DNA of 38,533 bases from Fibrobacter succinogenes (lineage in GTDB: Bacteria > Fibrobacterota > Fibrobacteria > Fibrobacterales > Fibrobacteraceae): positions 1 through 38,533 of the forward strand of contig CACXMH010000017.1 of the NCBI GenBank assembly GCA_902768715.1, written 5' to 3'. Below the pieces are notes generated by a model that had not been told where the DNA came from, did no database searches, and saw only the letters and a program-made list of their open reading frames with translations. Both the position numbers and the translations under genes were made by a program. Each line of letters opens with the position of its first letter. Within the stretch, counting starts at the first letter, position 1. Positions 10,301-20,634 of this stretch are shown here, in pieces.

Positions 10301-10818
10301 CCGAAACCAACGATCCGCTCCCCACGGGAGAGGCCGGCATGATCCTCATCGGCGGCTGCCAGGTGATGCAGGGCTACCTGAAGGATGACGAACGTACCAA
10401 GAGCGTCATCGTGAATATCAACGGTATTCGCTATTACCGCACGGGCGACAAGGGTTACCTGGACGAAGACGGGTTCCTCACCATCGTGGACCGTTACAGC
10501 CGCTTTGCCAAACTCGGTGGAGAGATGGTGAGTCTTGGAGCAGTCGAGAAGAAAATCCAGGATACACCGGTGCTGGAAGGTTGCGACTACCTGGTGACCA
10601 CAGTGCCCGATTCTGCAAAGGGCGAAAAGATTGTGCTGCTCTACCAGGGCGACAAAGACCCGAAGCAGGTGCTCTCGGAACTTAGGGTCTCTGGATTCCC
10701 GCCCATCATGCTTCCGTCTCTCGCATTCCCGGTGGAGAAAGTTCCAAAACTTGGGACCGGCAAGGCGGACTTTACCGGAGCGAAAAAACTCGCGAAGGAA
10801 CTGGCAGGGATTAAATAA
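7390..10818 (+). CDS. LplT-Aas fusion: lysophospholipid transporter / acyltransferase / acyl-ACP synthetase
   Basis: 1142 residues in three parts. Residues 1-405 are a multi-helix MFS transporter like LplT. Residues 415-615 are a PlsC-type acyltransferase with the HX4D motif (His442-Asp447, 'NHHSFID') and 'FPTGEVSKS'. Residues about 640-1135 are an AMP-forming acyl ligase with 'SSGSEGTPKG', 'EGYGCTETAP' and 'YRTGDKGYLDEDG', and a C-terminal 'GTGKADF' Lys motif. Together the parts would bring lysophospholipid back across the inner membrane and re-acylate it. E. coli uses two neighbouring genes; the total length matches their sum. Ribosome site GAAGG. Confidence 0.92.
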   Translation: MWKYSGAIRFFLSILAVTFVQMGVFIYAQKILSGSFVGVEGGQNWQSLMLQIFFIAPYVVFVWAAGLFSNKFSKNRVLAWSSLFMTSFVIAMAVLVTCGVPRVAFWLCIGLSTGFAVHSAAKYAVLKEMFGVRNLSYANAFLQIFSLSGIIAASWLAIVGVNLIDLGSLARYEAVRQIIAKSVVIPWILVGVSVLGTVASFLIPKVKYADRNVKFTTARRRFSLGWRQRSLRAIIIALSMFWAMAQVFTLMFQDVSGSETVDMIQNYLPFAIGGLMVGSIFSARNSRDFIETGFIPLGMIGTSLCMFLIPFMVHPVPLSITLALVGFFGGIFLVPVNALLQYNTRPNNSGWVIALANLIQAIVLGIFLVLFSVMVHYTHIRPQLYFVGLGVISLAVFAWTITNLPQALIRSLLRLVFSRHRIRVLNVGNIPNVGPVLMVGNHHSFIDWAMLQMACPRPLCIASNKDHFEKWYLRAILKRLGMIRIDNRHPEEAMEKIHEALLAGKAVVMFPTGEVSKSPHVEPFNLDYSKAVEGTDAVLLPFYIQGLWGSNYSYSGSDMYGASSDRSVTVAFGEPISAKTPPNEVRAIVRKISIEAWQYAVKFVRPIAASWINTCKKYVKNGPAIYNTDGGHFSGYKLMGAVMAFRGLLKKKLGKQEQNIGIMLPPSPAGVIVNLVLWVMGKTNVNLNYTSSVDNVKYCCEKADVSTVISSRQFVEKLKGRGNDYSQVASDKVRILYAEDLMKEIPKVKIAALLVLCMIMPAWLIRFVFCKHTRIDDTAVIVFSSGSEGTPKGVLLSHRNLMGNIQQLACILNVSRGDVMLSELPLFHSFGLTVTTLLNLTEGCPIVAVADPTDVKTMARVCSRFRVTCMVATPTFLRAFTVSRYVHPLVFKYVRIIIAGAEALRPELATAFRLKFGKEIFEGYGCTETAPVASVNTENTLLNDYMTMQVNNKPGTVGPALPGTQFLIVDPETNDPLPTGEAGMILIGGCQVMQGYLKDDERTKSVIVNINGIRYYRTGDKGYLDEDGFLTIVDRYSRFAKLGGEMVSLGAVEKKIQDTPVLEGCDYLVTTVPDSAKGEKIVLLYQGDKDPKQVLSELRVSGFPPIMLPSLAFPVEKVPKLGTGKADFTGAKKLAKELAGIK

Positions 10819-10880
10819 GTGTGGAATGTGTAGTGTGTAATGTGAAATTAGTCATTACATATTACACAATTCTCTTTTTT
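10819..10880. repeat. GTGT/ACAC-rich simple repeat able to fold back
   Basis: GTGTAATGTGA-type units are followed by their approximate complement (TCATTACATATTACACA), so the segment can form an imperfect hairpin. A related, longer array lies between thyA and folA at 12706-12828. Confidence 0.6.
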
Positions 10881-12705: not shown

Positions 12706-12828
12706 TAGTGTGTAGTGTGAAGTGTGTAATGTGTAATGAATAGTTTCACATCCCACATCCCACATCTCACATCTCACATCCCACATCTCACATCTCACAT
12801 CTCACATCCCACATTTCACATTCCGCAT
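12706..12828. repeat. 7-base tandem array (CACATCT/CACATCC) between thyA and folA
   Basis: A GT-rich left part (about 12707-12740) is followed by roughly 11 tandem 7-base units CACATCY/CACATTY (about 12747-12822). The left part is partly complementary to the right part, so a long hairpin is possible. The array ends about 8 bases before the folA ATG and leaves no ribosome-binding site. Confidence 0.85.
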
Positions 12829-15598: not shown

Positions 15599-16903
15599 CT
15601 ATTCTTTTTCCAGGCAGTTGTCCATAGCGGCGATAATCTTTTTCTTGTCCATGTGCTGGCCGATAAAGACCAGACGGTTGGTGCGGTCGCCGTATTTTTC
15701 GTCCCAGATGTTCTTGAGCTGCGGGTTTTCGCGCAGTAGCTGGTCTTGCACGGCCTTGCTTTCGGCGGCGAACCAGCGCCCGAAATTCTGGGCGGAAGCC
15801 TGCTTGCCCGCCTGCTCGAACAGGTAGCTCTCTGTCGGTTCGTCACTGAACCACATGAGACCCTTGGTGCGGATGATGCAGCTGGGATAGTCGTCCAGGA
15901 ATTCCTCGAATTTTTTGCGGTTCACGGGTGGACGGCGCTCATAGACGAAGGTGCTGATGCCGTATTCGTCGCCATGGGGATGGTCCTTGTCGTGGTGGTG
16001 ACCGCAATGGCAGACCCCGTGCTCGTGGTCGCAGTGGCTGTGGTCTTCTTCATCGTGATCATCGTGGTCGTGATGGTGGTGATGCTCGTGCTCGTCATGA
16101 TCGTGGTCATCATCGTGGTCGTGATGATGATGTTCATGCTCGTCATGGTCATCATCATCCATGTCGTTGTCCGTCTTGTTGAGCTCGATGGCCCAACGGC
16201 TGGACTCCGCCACCTTCTCGAAATCGAACAGCTTGGTGTCCAGGACTTCTTTCATGTCCACCTTGCCGAAGTTGGTCTCGATCATCTTGGCAGTGGGCTG
16301 CAAGGCTTTGACCACGGCCTTCACGTGTTCCAGGTCGCCCTTGGAGAGCATGTCCACCTTGTTCAGGATAACCGTGTTGCAGAACTCGATCTGCTGGATC
16401 AAGAGGTTTGCGATGTCTTCTTCTTCCAGGTCCTTGTCCAGGAGCTTTTCGCCACCGCCGAACTCGTCGGCCAGGCGGAGCGCGTCCACCACGGCGGCGA
16501 TGTTGTCCAGGTGGCAGGCCAGACGCTGGCCGTTCTTGCCCTGCAACTGGCTTCCGGCCATGCAGATGGTCTGGGCGATAGGTACCGGCTCGCAGATGCC
16601 GCTGGCTTCAATCAGTATGTAGTCGAACTTGCCCATCTCCAGGATTTCGGCAATCTGTTCCAACAGGTCAGCCTTCAGGGAGCAGCAGATGCAACCGTTG
16701 CTGAGGGGAACTACCTTTCCGGAATCTTCCTTGGTGATGTTCCCGCCTTTCTCGATGAGAGTCTGGTCGATATTCACTTCGCCGATATCGTTCACGATAA
16801 CGGCCACGTGGTAGCCCTGCTGGTTGTTGAGGATGTAGTTGAGAAGGGTGGTTTTTCCGGCTCCGAGGTAACCGGTGAGCAGCGTAATAGGTACTGATTT
16901 CAT
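15599..16903 (-). CDS. CobW/COG0523 GTPase, metal chaperone with His-rich insert
   Basis: 434 residues from the ATG at 16903, which has a good AAAGGA site; a longer open frame starts upstream but is unlikely. Walker A is GYLGAGKT (11-18), the metal-binding CICC motif is 71-74, NKVD is 181-184, and a CobW C-terminal domain covers about 315-430. Residues 246-312 are almost only His, Asp and Glu with a few Cys, a probable Zn or Ni/Co store. Family members deliver metal to target proteins using GTP. An inverted repeat lies just upstream (16930-16952). Confidence 0.92.
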   Translation of the reverse strand: MKSVPITLLTGYLGAGKTTLLNYILNNQQGYHVAVIVNDIGEVNIDQTLIEKGGNITKEDSGKVVPLSNGCICCSLKADLLEQIAEILEMGKFDYILIEASGICEPVPIAQTICMAGSQLQGKNGQRLACHLDNIAAVVDALRLADEFGGGEKLLDKDLEEEDIANLLIQQIEFCNTVILNKVDMLSKGDLEHVKAVVKALQPTAKMIETNFGKVDMKEVLDTKLFDFEKVAESSRWAIELNKTDNDMDDDDHDEHEHHHHDHDDDHDHDEHEHHHHHDHDDHDEEDHSHCDHEHGVCHCGHHHDKDHPHGDEYGISTFVYERRPPVNRKKFEEFLDDYPSCIIRTKGLMWFSDEPTESYLFEQAGKQASAQNFGRWFAAESKAVQDQLLRENPQLKNIWDEKYGDRTNRLVFIGQHMDKKKIIAAMDNCLEKE

Positions 16904-16929
16904 TTTGATTCCTTTGAAATGCAAGTGCA

Positions 16930-16952
16930 CACTGTTCGTTAAAAAAACAGTG
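16930..16952 (-). promoter_or_regulatory. 7-bp inverted repeat between the Rrf2 gene and the CobW-type gene
   Basis: CACTGTT and AACAGTG with a 9-base A/T-rich centre. It lies 27 bases before the CobW-type start codon and 8 after the Rrf2-family stop codon. It could be an operator (for example for a metal regulator) or a weak terminator; the T run is inside the loop, which favours an operator. Confidence 0.4.
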
Positions 16953-18322: not shown

Positions 18323-18638
18323 AGTGAGTCCAAAGATAGTAAAAAGTGGTTAGTGGTTAGGCCGTAAGGCCGTGGTTAGTGTCCCGGCGCGGAGGCCGGG
18401 ATGACAATGTTAGGGGGGGGGGACTCCCCCTCGTCAAAGCCTCGCCCTATCGTGTTATGCCCGCGATTCTTCTTGTCATGCCCGCGCAGGCGGGCATCTC
18501 CTATCATCTTATCGTTCAGGGCAAGTCTTTTCCTACCCCCTCTCCTAGGGGCTTTGCCCCTAAAACCCCATTTATTGTGGAAATAAACGGTAGAAATATC
18601 TAAATTTGCCTTTTACTAATACCATTTTAAGGTAATTC
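18323..18638. repeat. Gene-free stretch filled with several repeat types
   Basis: From left to right: purC promoter box (18331-18338); GTGGTTAG direct repeats broken by GGCCGTAAGGCC; an inverted family A palindrome (about 18380-18408); a run of ten G followed by ACTCCCCCT; a second family A copy (about 18472-18503, TGTCATGCCCGCGCAGGCGGGCATCTCCT layout); and a TAGGGGCTTTGCCCCTA hairpin (about 18546-18562). Short open frames here are made of repeat sequence and have no sign of being genes. Confidence 0.7.
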
Positions 18639-19626: not shown

Positions 19627-19664
19627 TGTCATTGCGAGGGGCGTCAAGCCCCGTGGCAATCTCT
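19627..19664. terminator. Palindrome between convergent genes (GTCATTGCGAGG-type repeat)
   Basis: ATTGC (19631-19635) pairs with GCAAT (19656-19660) around GGGGC (19638-19642) and GCCCC (19648-19652). It separates the VanZ-like gene from murB, which run toward each other. The sequence type is a common dispersed bacterial repeat. It may end transcription from both sides, but there is no clear T run. Confidence 0.5.
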
Positions 19665-20634
19665 ATTCAAATTCGCCGAGTAATATTATCTCTCGCTGTA
19701 AAGTAATCCCGAACTTTTCGGTAACTTTATTTTGTACGTACTCGCTGAGGCTCTTGATGTCTTGGGCGGTAGCGCCACCAGCGTTCACGATAAAGTTGGC
19801 GTGTAATGTGCTTACTTCTGCGCCGCCTATGCGATAGCCTTTGAGACCCGCCTGTTCGATGTAGTAGCCTGGGGCGACCTGTGTGGGGGTCTCGGCGGCG
19901 CCGACTTCTAGACGTTTGAAGATGGAACCTGCGTTGGGCATGTTCAGGGGCTGCGTGGCCTTGCGCTTGGCCATGCACTCGGCCAGTTCAGCTTCCAGGT
20001 CGGCGGTGGTCAATCCTTGCGAACTTGCGCTTTGCAGCTGGAACGTAGCCGCGAGAATGATTTTTACATTGTCATCCCCGGCTTGGCCGGGGATCTCCTT
20101 GCAGTAGTTGAAAACGCTCCGTCTGTAGCCGAAACCGCATTCGGCGGCGGACAACTCGCAGATGTTTCCGGCCGCATCAAGGACCGTCACGCCGATGCAG
20201 GCTTGTCCGATTTCTTGGCCGTAGGCGCCTGCGTTCATGTACACCGCCCCGCCCAAGGTCCCGGGGATGCCGGCCAGCTTGTGGATACCGGCGTAGCCCT
20301 GCTTGGGAGTGTGCCGGGCGAACCTGCCCAGGGGTGTTGCCGCACCTACCTTGAACCTGCCGTTCCCCAGATCCACGATTTCCGAAAATTCTCCGTCGAA
20401 GGAAATGACCACGCCTTCGTAGCCCTTGTCCGAGACCAACAGGTTGGTCCCGTTACCCAAAATAAAGTGTGGGAGATTCTTTTCCCGAGCAAAAGAAAGG
20501 GCGCTTTTCAGGCTTTCCATGGAGCTCACCTTGGCAAAATACCGCGCAGGGCCACCCACCTTGAAAGAGGTGTGCTTGCTCATGGGTTCGTTTTCTTTAA
20601 CAAACGGAGGGATGGTCGGTTCCGCAATTTGCAT
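19663..20634 (-). CDS. murB: UDP-N-acetylmuramate dehydrogenase (MurB) with a repeat-derived insert
   Basis: 323 residues from the ATG at 20634; the longer open frame upstream lacks support. It reduces UDP-GlcNAc-enolpyruvate in peptidoglycan synthesis using FAD and NADPH. Motifs: 'GNGTNLLVSDKGYEGVV' (60-76), 'GIPGTLGGAVYMNAGAYGQE' (122-141), the active-site 'GYRRS' (169-173), the catalytic Ser in 'PNAGSIFKR', and a C-terminal 'LQREIILLGE' Glu. Residues about 180-189 (EIPGQAGDDN) are encoded by a family A palindrome and interrupt the usual short link between 'GYRxSxF' and 'IILxATF'. A TATATTTG box ends 4 bases before the ATG. Confidence 0.93.
   Translation of the reverse strand: MQIAEPTIPPFVKENEPMSKHTSFKVGGPARYFAKVSSMESLKSALSFAREKNLPHFILGNGTNLLVSDKGYEGVVISFDGEFSEIVDLGNGRFKVGAATPLGRFARHTPKQGYAGIHKLAGIPGTLGGAVYMNAGAYGQEIGQACIGVTVLDAAGNICELSAAECGFGYRRSVFNYCKEIPGQAGDDNVKIILAATFQLQSASSQGLTTADLEAELAECMAKRKATQPLNMPNAGSIFKRLEVGAAETPTQVAPGYYIEQAGLKGYRIGGAEVSTLHANFIVNAGGATAQDIKSLSEYVQNKVTEKFGITLQREIILLGEFE
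20068..20101. repeat. Family A palindrome inside murB
   Basis: On the plus strand: TTGTCAT, an 8-bp palindrome (ATCCCCGG...CCGGGGAT), then CTCCT. It is the same layout as at 1567 and 18472. It is read in frame in murB, on the opposite strand. Confidence 0.85.

Follow-up and report, generated by a model that had tools for sequence, protein, structure and literature searches.

The window, that is the whole stretch of 38,533 nucleotides analysed here, belongs to a MAG of the gut bacterium Fibrobacter (114 contigs, about 95% complete) and carries on its minus strand the murB gene for an essential cell-wall enzyme, UDP-N-acetylenolpyruvoylglucosamine reductase (19663-20634, with a likely ATG start and a frame which stays open to 20661). 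The identity of the gene is secure: its product matches both Pfam FAD_binding_4 and MurB_C, MurB chains from the PDB match it with an E value of 1e-50, and the top Foldseek matches of the modelled protein are MurBs. A murB orthologue is present in 77 of 80 Fibrobacter genomes. The protein keeps all 38 columns which are invariant across 41 aligned MurBs, and the arginine of its GYR motif (codon 20122-20124, minus strand; R171 counted from the ATG) is found in 41 of 41; from general knowledge of MurB this residue is presumed to be the active-site arginine with a catalytic role.

Shortly after the invariant arginine the gene is occupied by a palindromic element of 30 nt (20070-20099, plus strand) with the layout TGTC-ATCCCCGG-CTTGG-CCGGGGAT-CTCCT, referred to here as a CGTC-type REP or family A. 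It comprises a TGTC head (20070-20073), an 8-bp stem with the arms ATCCCCGG (20074-20081) and CCGGGGAT (20087-20094), a 5-nt loop and a tail which runs to 20099. In the murB frame it is read as EIPGQAGDDN (codons 20068-20097, minus strand), located between GYRRSVFNY and IILAATF. An earlier sequence-only reading had recognised a palindrome at 20068-20101 with this translation, and its coordinates, frame and neighbours proved correct. The same reading placed the insert next to the active site, which holds along the sequence, just after the GYR arginine; in space the segment is modelled as disordered. The protein model has a mean pLDDT of 92 and falls below 50 only at residues 180-186, so that the prediction places the REP-encoded segment in a disordered loop within an otherwise confident MurB fold. 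The sequence-only reading would have been refuted by conservation of the ten residues in distant MurBs without the repeat family; no aligned MurB of another phylum has them. Because murB is otherwise intact and conserved, its sequence suggests that the insert-bearing enzyme is active. It could be argued that the insert is an artefact of assembly, given a MAG of so many contigs, or a mark of a decaying pseudogene. Nevertheless, the same element lies at the same place in a separate assembly (L047) and related forms lie in two others (L046, L045), the murB frame is open throughout with the 38 invariant columns kept, and assemblies of about 10-30 contigs (G030, G080, G082, G083) likewise contain inserts, of the two other repeat families described below, which makes this explanation highly improbable.

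The family A layout, TCATNCC...GGNATCTCC, occurs in 76 strict copies in the 2.84-Mb genome and its reversed pattern in none, therefore the element is not a product of chance; for a related pattern 0.00 occurrences were expected per shuffle of the window. These strict counts are undercounts, the search pattern having demanded a CTCC tail so that copies with other tails were left uncounted. Most copies (48) have an 8-bp stem with a 4-nt loop, 15 have an 8-bp stem with a 5-nt loop, and nine a 9-bp stem with a 3-nt loop, which can also be read as 8 and 5. Nearly all stems begin with AT, and their arms, of ten sequence types, match each other as complements in nearly all copies. The strict copies are mostly single. 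Two intergenic ones lie in the window on the plus strand, at 1567-1593 (5-nt loop) and at 18474-18501 (4-nt loop); the second is CGTC-1-like and is faced by a degenerate partner at about 18380-18406, and the murB copy with its 5-nt loop is CGTC-2-like. Both had been noticed from the sequence, at 1567 and 18472, as sharing a TGTCAT layout with the murB element; the copies are real, but the one at 1567 starts with TTTCAT (head TTTC). A second palindrome of another family, B, touches murB from outside: GTCATTGCGAGGGGC...GCCCCGTGGCAATC(TC), at 19627-19662 on the plus strand, directly abuts the stop codon of the gene (19663-19665), so murB bears one palindrome within and one at its end. Repeats of other kinds are also seen in the window. 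A short intergenic tandem repeat of the CACATCYCACATCT type spans 12747-12823, with a related stretch near 10811-10868, and a gene judged by eye to encode a CobW-like GTPase (15599-16930) contains a stretch of about 45 residues rich in His, Asp and Glu, built from short repeats and possibly metal binding.

A profile search of the genome (MAG about 95% complete) gave no match to Y1_Tnp (PF01797), and a Y1/RAYT transposase was rejected on this ground as the present-day mobiliser of the element in this genome. The domain is present in 27 of 80 congeners and is missing from the REP-rich genomes G083 (138 copies) and G081 (92 copies).

About ten of the 76 copies lie in frame within conserved genes, where domains are recognised on either side of the copy or around it; this census of in-gene copies was made from the sequence flanking them. 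The carriers are murB, uvrA, uvrB, hemA, hrpB, dus, a sodium:solute symporter, a uroporphyrin methyltransferase-HemD fusion, an RNA-methyltransferase-like protein and a GFO/IDH/MocA oxidoreductase, with a glycosyltransferase (L133) as a weaker case. Copies close to the N-terminus or before the first domain were excluded as intragenic (ThiG, an ABC protein, a TonB plug, Omp85, TPR, a sigma-54 activator, ORF6N, a class II tRNA synthetase and a DHH protein), because in such reading frames the true start may lie downstream of the REP. In uvrA (L138:2-2446) and uvrB (L015:2-1627) the insert occupies a linker between domains, and wherever an alignment shows the placement of an in-gene copy it is a linker or a loop. 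The in-frame copies make use of five reading frames, which makes it less likely that the element itself has a coding function. The insert in dus is present in this genome, in G062 and in G066 and is absent from G016, G022 and G084, a distribution pointing to a fairly recent insertion.

The gene hemA, for glutamyl-tRNA reductase, deserves separate attention. One of its loops carries a REP in this genome (L027:634-1995) and a long-apex form of the REP in L263-L265, it is filled with CHPERS..EVEG, a GTCATCCTGAGCG..GTCGAAGGATC repeat, in L272, L274 and L275, and with NVIASVARQSN, which is family B in another frame, in L278 and L280. The HemA loop (L262-L291) is a further site at which repeats have landed recurrently, those of at least three families being spread over different species of Fibrobacter. 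The long-apex REP has a TGAGCG..GTCGAAG segment between its arms, as if one repeat had been inserted at the hairpin tip of another. It is dispersed in nine of 12 genomes, for example at G022:C12:2838-2889, G066:C44:5718-5769 and G000:C60:1583-1634 among other copies, and it is the form found in murB of G022.

In MurB itself the segment from FGYR to SATF has 13 different lengths among 76 congeners (16-43 residues between the anchors), and every other segment between tested anchors has a single length, save one neighbour with five. The shortest and commonest loop is of the QKNKA type. The sequence-only reading had stated that GYRRSVFNY and IILAATF are normally only a few residues apart; the distance is indeed four residues (KNKA) in 21 of the 76 congeners, up to about ten in most others, and about 3-5 in MurBs from Firmicutes and other lineages. 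In 19 of 78 Fibrobacter murB genes there is a dispersed repeat or what is left of one, always in this loop and always in frame, and three families are represented there: A, the REP; B, with the layout GTCATTGCGAG...GCAATC; and C, with CCTGAGC..GCCGAAGG. Family A is intact at the identical place in the gene of the window (L044) and in L047 (G028), takes the long-apex form in L046 (G022), is reduced to a half-element in L045 and L074-L076, and survives as a remnant in L048 and L078. In G018 (L120:880-960) the REP has been tandemly duplicated with flanking bases into two 39-nt units, which add about 26 residues in frame. Family B, as GTCATTGCGAGG...CCGAAGCAATC, fills the loop of L056, L083 and L087, and family C, as CCTGAGCCTGCCGAAGG, that of L072, L099, L103, L105, L108 and L109. 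All three are dispersed repeats in their own right, with 11-138 copies in 16 congeners for A, 2-67 copies in ten genomes for B and 2-14 copies in ten genomes for C; for each the reversed pattern was found 0 times.

How many insertions are needed was judged from a MurB tree built without the loop columns; it is a gene tree, and recombination could mimic its pattern. The filled gene of G018 (L120) is sister to an empty gene with QKNKA (L081) at a support of 100/99, away from the clade of the window gene, and the two sisters have about 91% nucleotide identity. The HemA of G018 is 71% identical to that of the present genome, compared with 85-98% for matched parts inside the clade of the latter, so it too points outside this clade. 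The family A copy of G018 looks like an independent insertion, given the empty state of the sister and the duplication of the REP. Forcing L120 into the clade of the window gene costs 20.5 log-likelihood units with an AU p of 0.08, and keeping family B as a single clade gives an AU p of 0.095. On account of these two values at least four insertions are likely but not proved; three families in the MurB loop are shown. In families B and C, inserts may have been lost or exchanged between lineages.

The same AU values keep one origin formally open for A or for B, and a single ancestral insertion in Fibrobacter should be considered, which would have diverged into what now resemble families A, B and C and disappeared from the other lineages. 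Families A and B have short motifs such as GTCAT in common, and a view of this kind was preferred by the authors of the Rickettsia study for the RPE-4/6/7 loci (PMC3767692). However, A, B and C are each dispersed in the same genomes and the inserts match the layout of their own family rather than intermediates, empty sisters stand next to filled genes on the tree, and the palindrome of L120 is still intact beside an empty sister of about 91% nucleotide identity. A single diverged insertion is therefore unlikely, and we favour the MurB loop as a recurrent landing site, a hotspot rather than the seat of a diverged common origin.

The explanation which we regard as very probable is that of repeated in-frame insertions, near-neutral and tolerated, into a MurB loop which is disordered and accepts changes of length. 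A non-autonomous CGTC-type REP would have entered murB in the ancestor of the Fibrobacter clade to which the window belongs, landing in the loop that links the GYRxSxF segment to the following strand. Because the insert has no stop codon in five of its six frames and lengthens the gene by a multiple of three, it would be translated as a flexible extension, and according to the model the enzyme would keep its fold. The loop is the main length-tolerant part of MurB, where new sequence probably costs little; insertions elsewhere in the protein are probably purged and those in the loop survive, which would explain why three families have been taken up over the genus. Once in place, the repeats would erode, expand or be exchanged in frame. 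Movement of the REP may have depended on a transposase of the Y1/RAYT type, which would have acted in trans or at an earlier time, or on repair-associated copying.

An adaptive role has also been considered, in which the added loop, or the hairpin in the mRNA, tunes the activity of MurB or the translation of murB. The loop begins shortly after the invariant arginine, the element folds as RNA into a strong hairpin (-21.6 kcal/mol, z -3.7), and the inserts of the window gene and of L047, from two species, are unusually alike, being identical at 47 of 48 nt compared with about 84% in the murB flanks. This likeness exceeds what plain neutral drift predicts and may reflect constraint, or exchange with other copies in the genome. 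In contrast, unrelated sequences fill the same loop, most species do without them, the inserts decay to half-elements and the segment is predicted to be disordered, so a benefit to the host seems quite unlikely as the cause of their presence. It seems rather probable that certain loops of conserved enzymes, those of MurB and HemA, are recurrent landing pads: over the history of the genus, unrelated palindrome families would arrive there in frame, insert into one another, decay and give way to others, so that housekeeping enzymes regularly gain loop sequence from dispersed DNA repeats.

In-frame REPs and RPEs are well established, and the literature searched contains no report of such elements in murB or in Fibrobacter; neither name is mentioned in the main text of the CGTC REP survey (PMC3733652). 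As far as this search goes, novelty lies in the gene and the phylum, and in the clear turnover of several families in one enzyme loop beside empty sister genes. In the Rickettsia study two possibilities were weighed, an insertion hotspot and a single old insertion that diverged, and the authors leaned to the latter (PMC3767692). The question becomes directly testable in Fibrobacter, which offers dozens of species, some assemblies of few contigs, and sister genes that differ in whether this loop is filled, as well as a natural series of loop variants in one essential enzyme.

It remains to place the murB element among known systems. In the CGTC survey this REP super-family has an unpaired CGTC (or TGTC or CCTC) end and an 8-9-bp stem, is arranged predominantly in head-to-head dimers, and includes RPE-6 (CGTC-1) and RPE-4 (CGTC-4) of R. 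conorii (PMC3733652). The murB element resembles these REPs in its TGTC head, AT-initiated 8-bp stem, 4-5-nt loop, tens of dispersed copies, lack of a dedicated transposase and occurrence of some copies in frame within genes, uvr genes included; it differs in the tail, which is CTCC here and mostly, though not always, fits CCA there (Di Nocera et al. 2013, PMC3733652). The survey also describes REPs as over-represented in repair genes of other phyla, uvr genes among them (PMC3733652). The carriers uvrA and uvrB agree with this, in small numbers, and the present case extends in-frame REPs to Fibrobacterota. GTAG REP/RAYT systems are likewise short dispersed palindromes, but the murB element is without a GTAG end and its genome without a Y1_Tnp match. 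RPE-1 to RPE-3 of Rickettsia, almost devoid of the ATGAC motif (PMC3767692), and the Wolbachia WPE are also palindromes translated inside host genes, the elements themselves being different. A further parallel is offered by RPE-4, RPE-6 and RPE-7, which lie in frame in conserved genes and have the ATGAC motif, and for which one site can hold elements of different groups in orthologues; their encoded segments are exposed in the protein, and that of MurB is modelled as disordered (PMC3767692, PMC3733652). Rickettsia inserts of the published list exceed the murB element in length (68-192 bp), and a single origin was argued for them, whereas three distinct dispersed families and empty sister genes speak for repeated insertion in Fibrobacter. 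The comparison with Rickettsia elements that enter genes without breaking them, made by the sequence-only reading, is borne out by the place of RPE-4 and RPE-6 in the CGTC super-family, whose layout the murB element has except for its CTCC tail; it is right in kind, and a single element is only part of the picture. The evidence supports a dispersed palindromic element inserted in a conserved gene without breaking it, which works like an RPE in a Fibrobacter rather than a Rickettsia host; the most fitting description of it is a CGTC-type REP whose tail is a variant.
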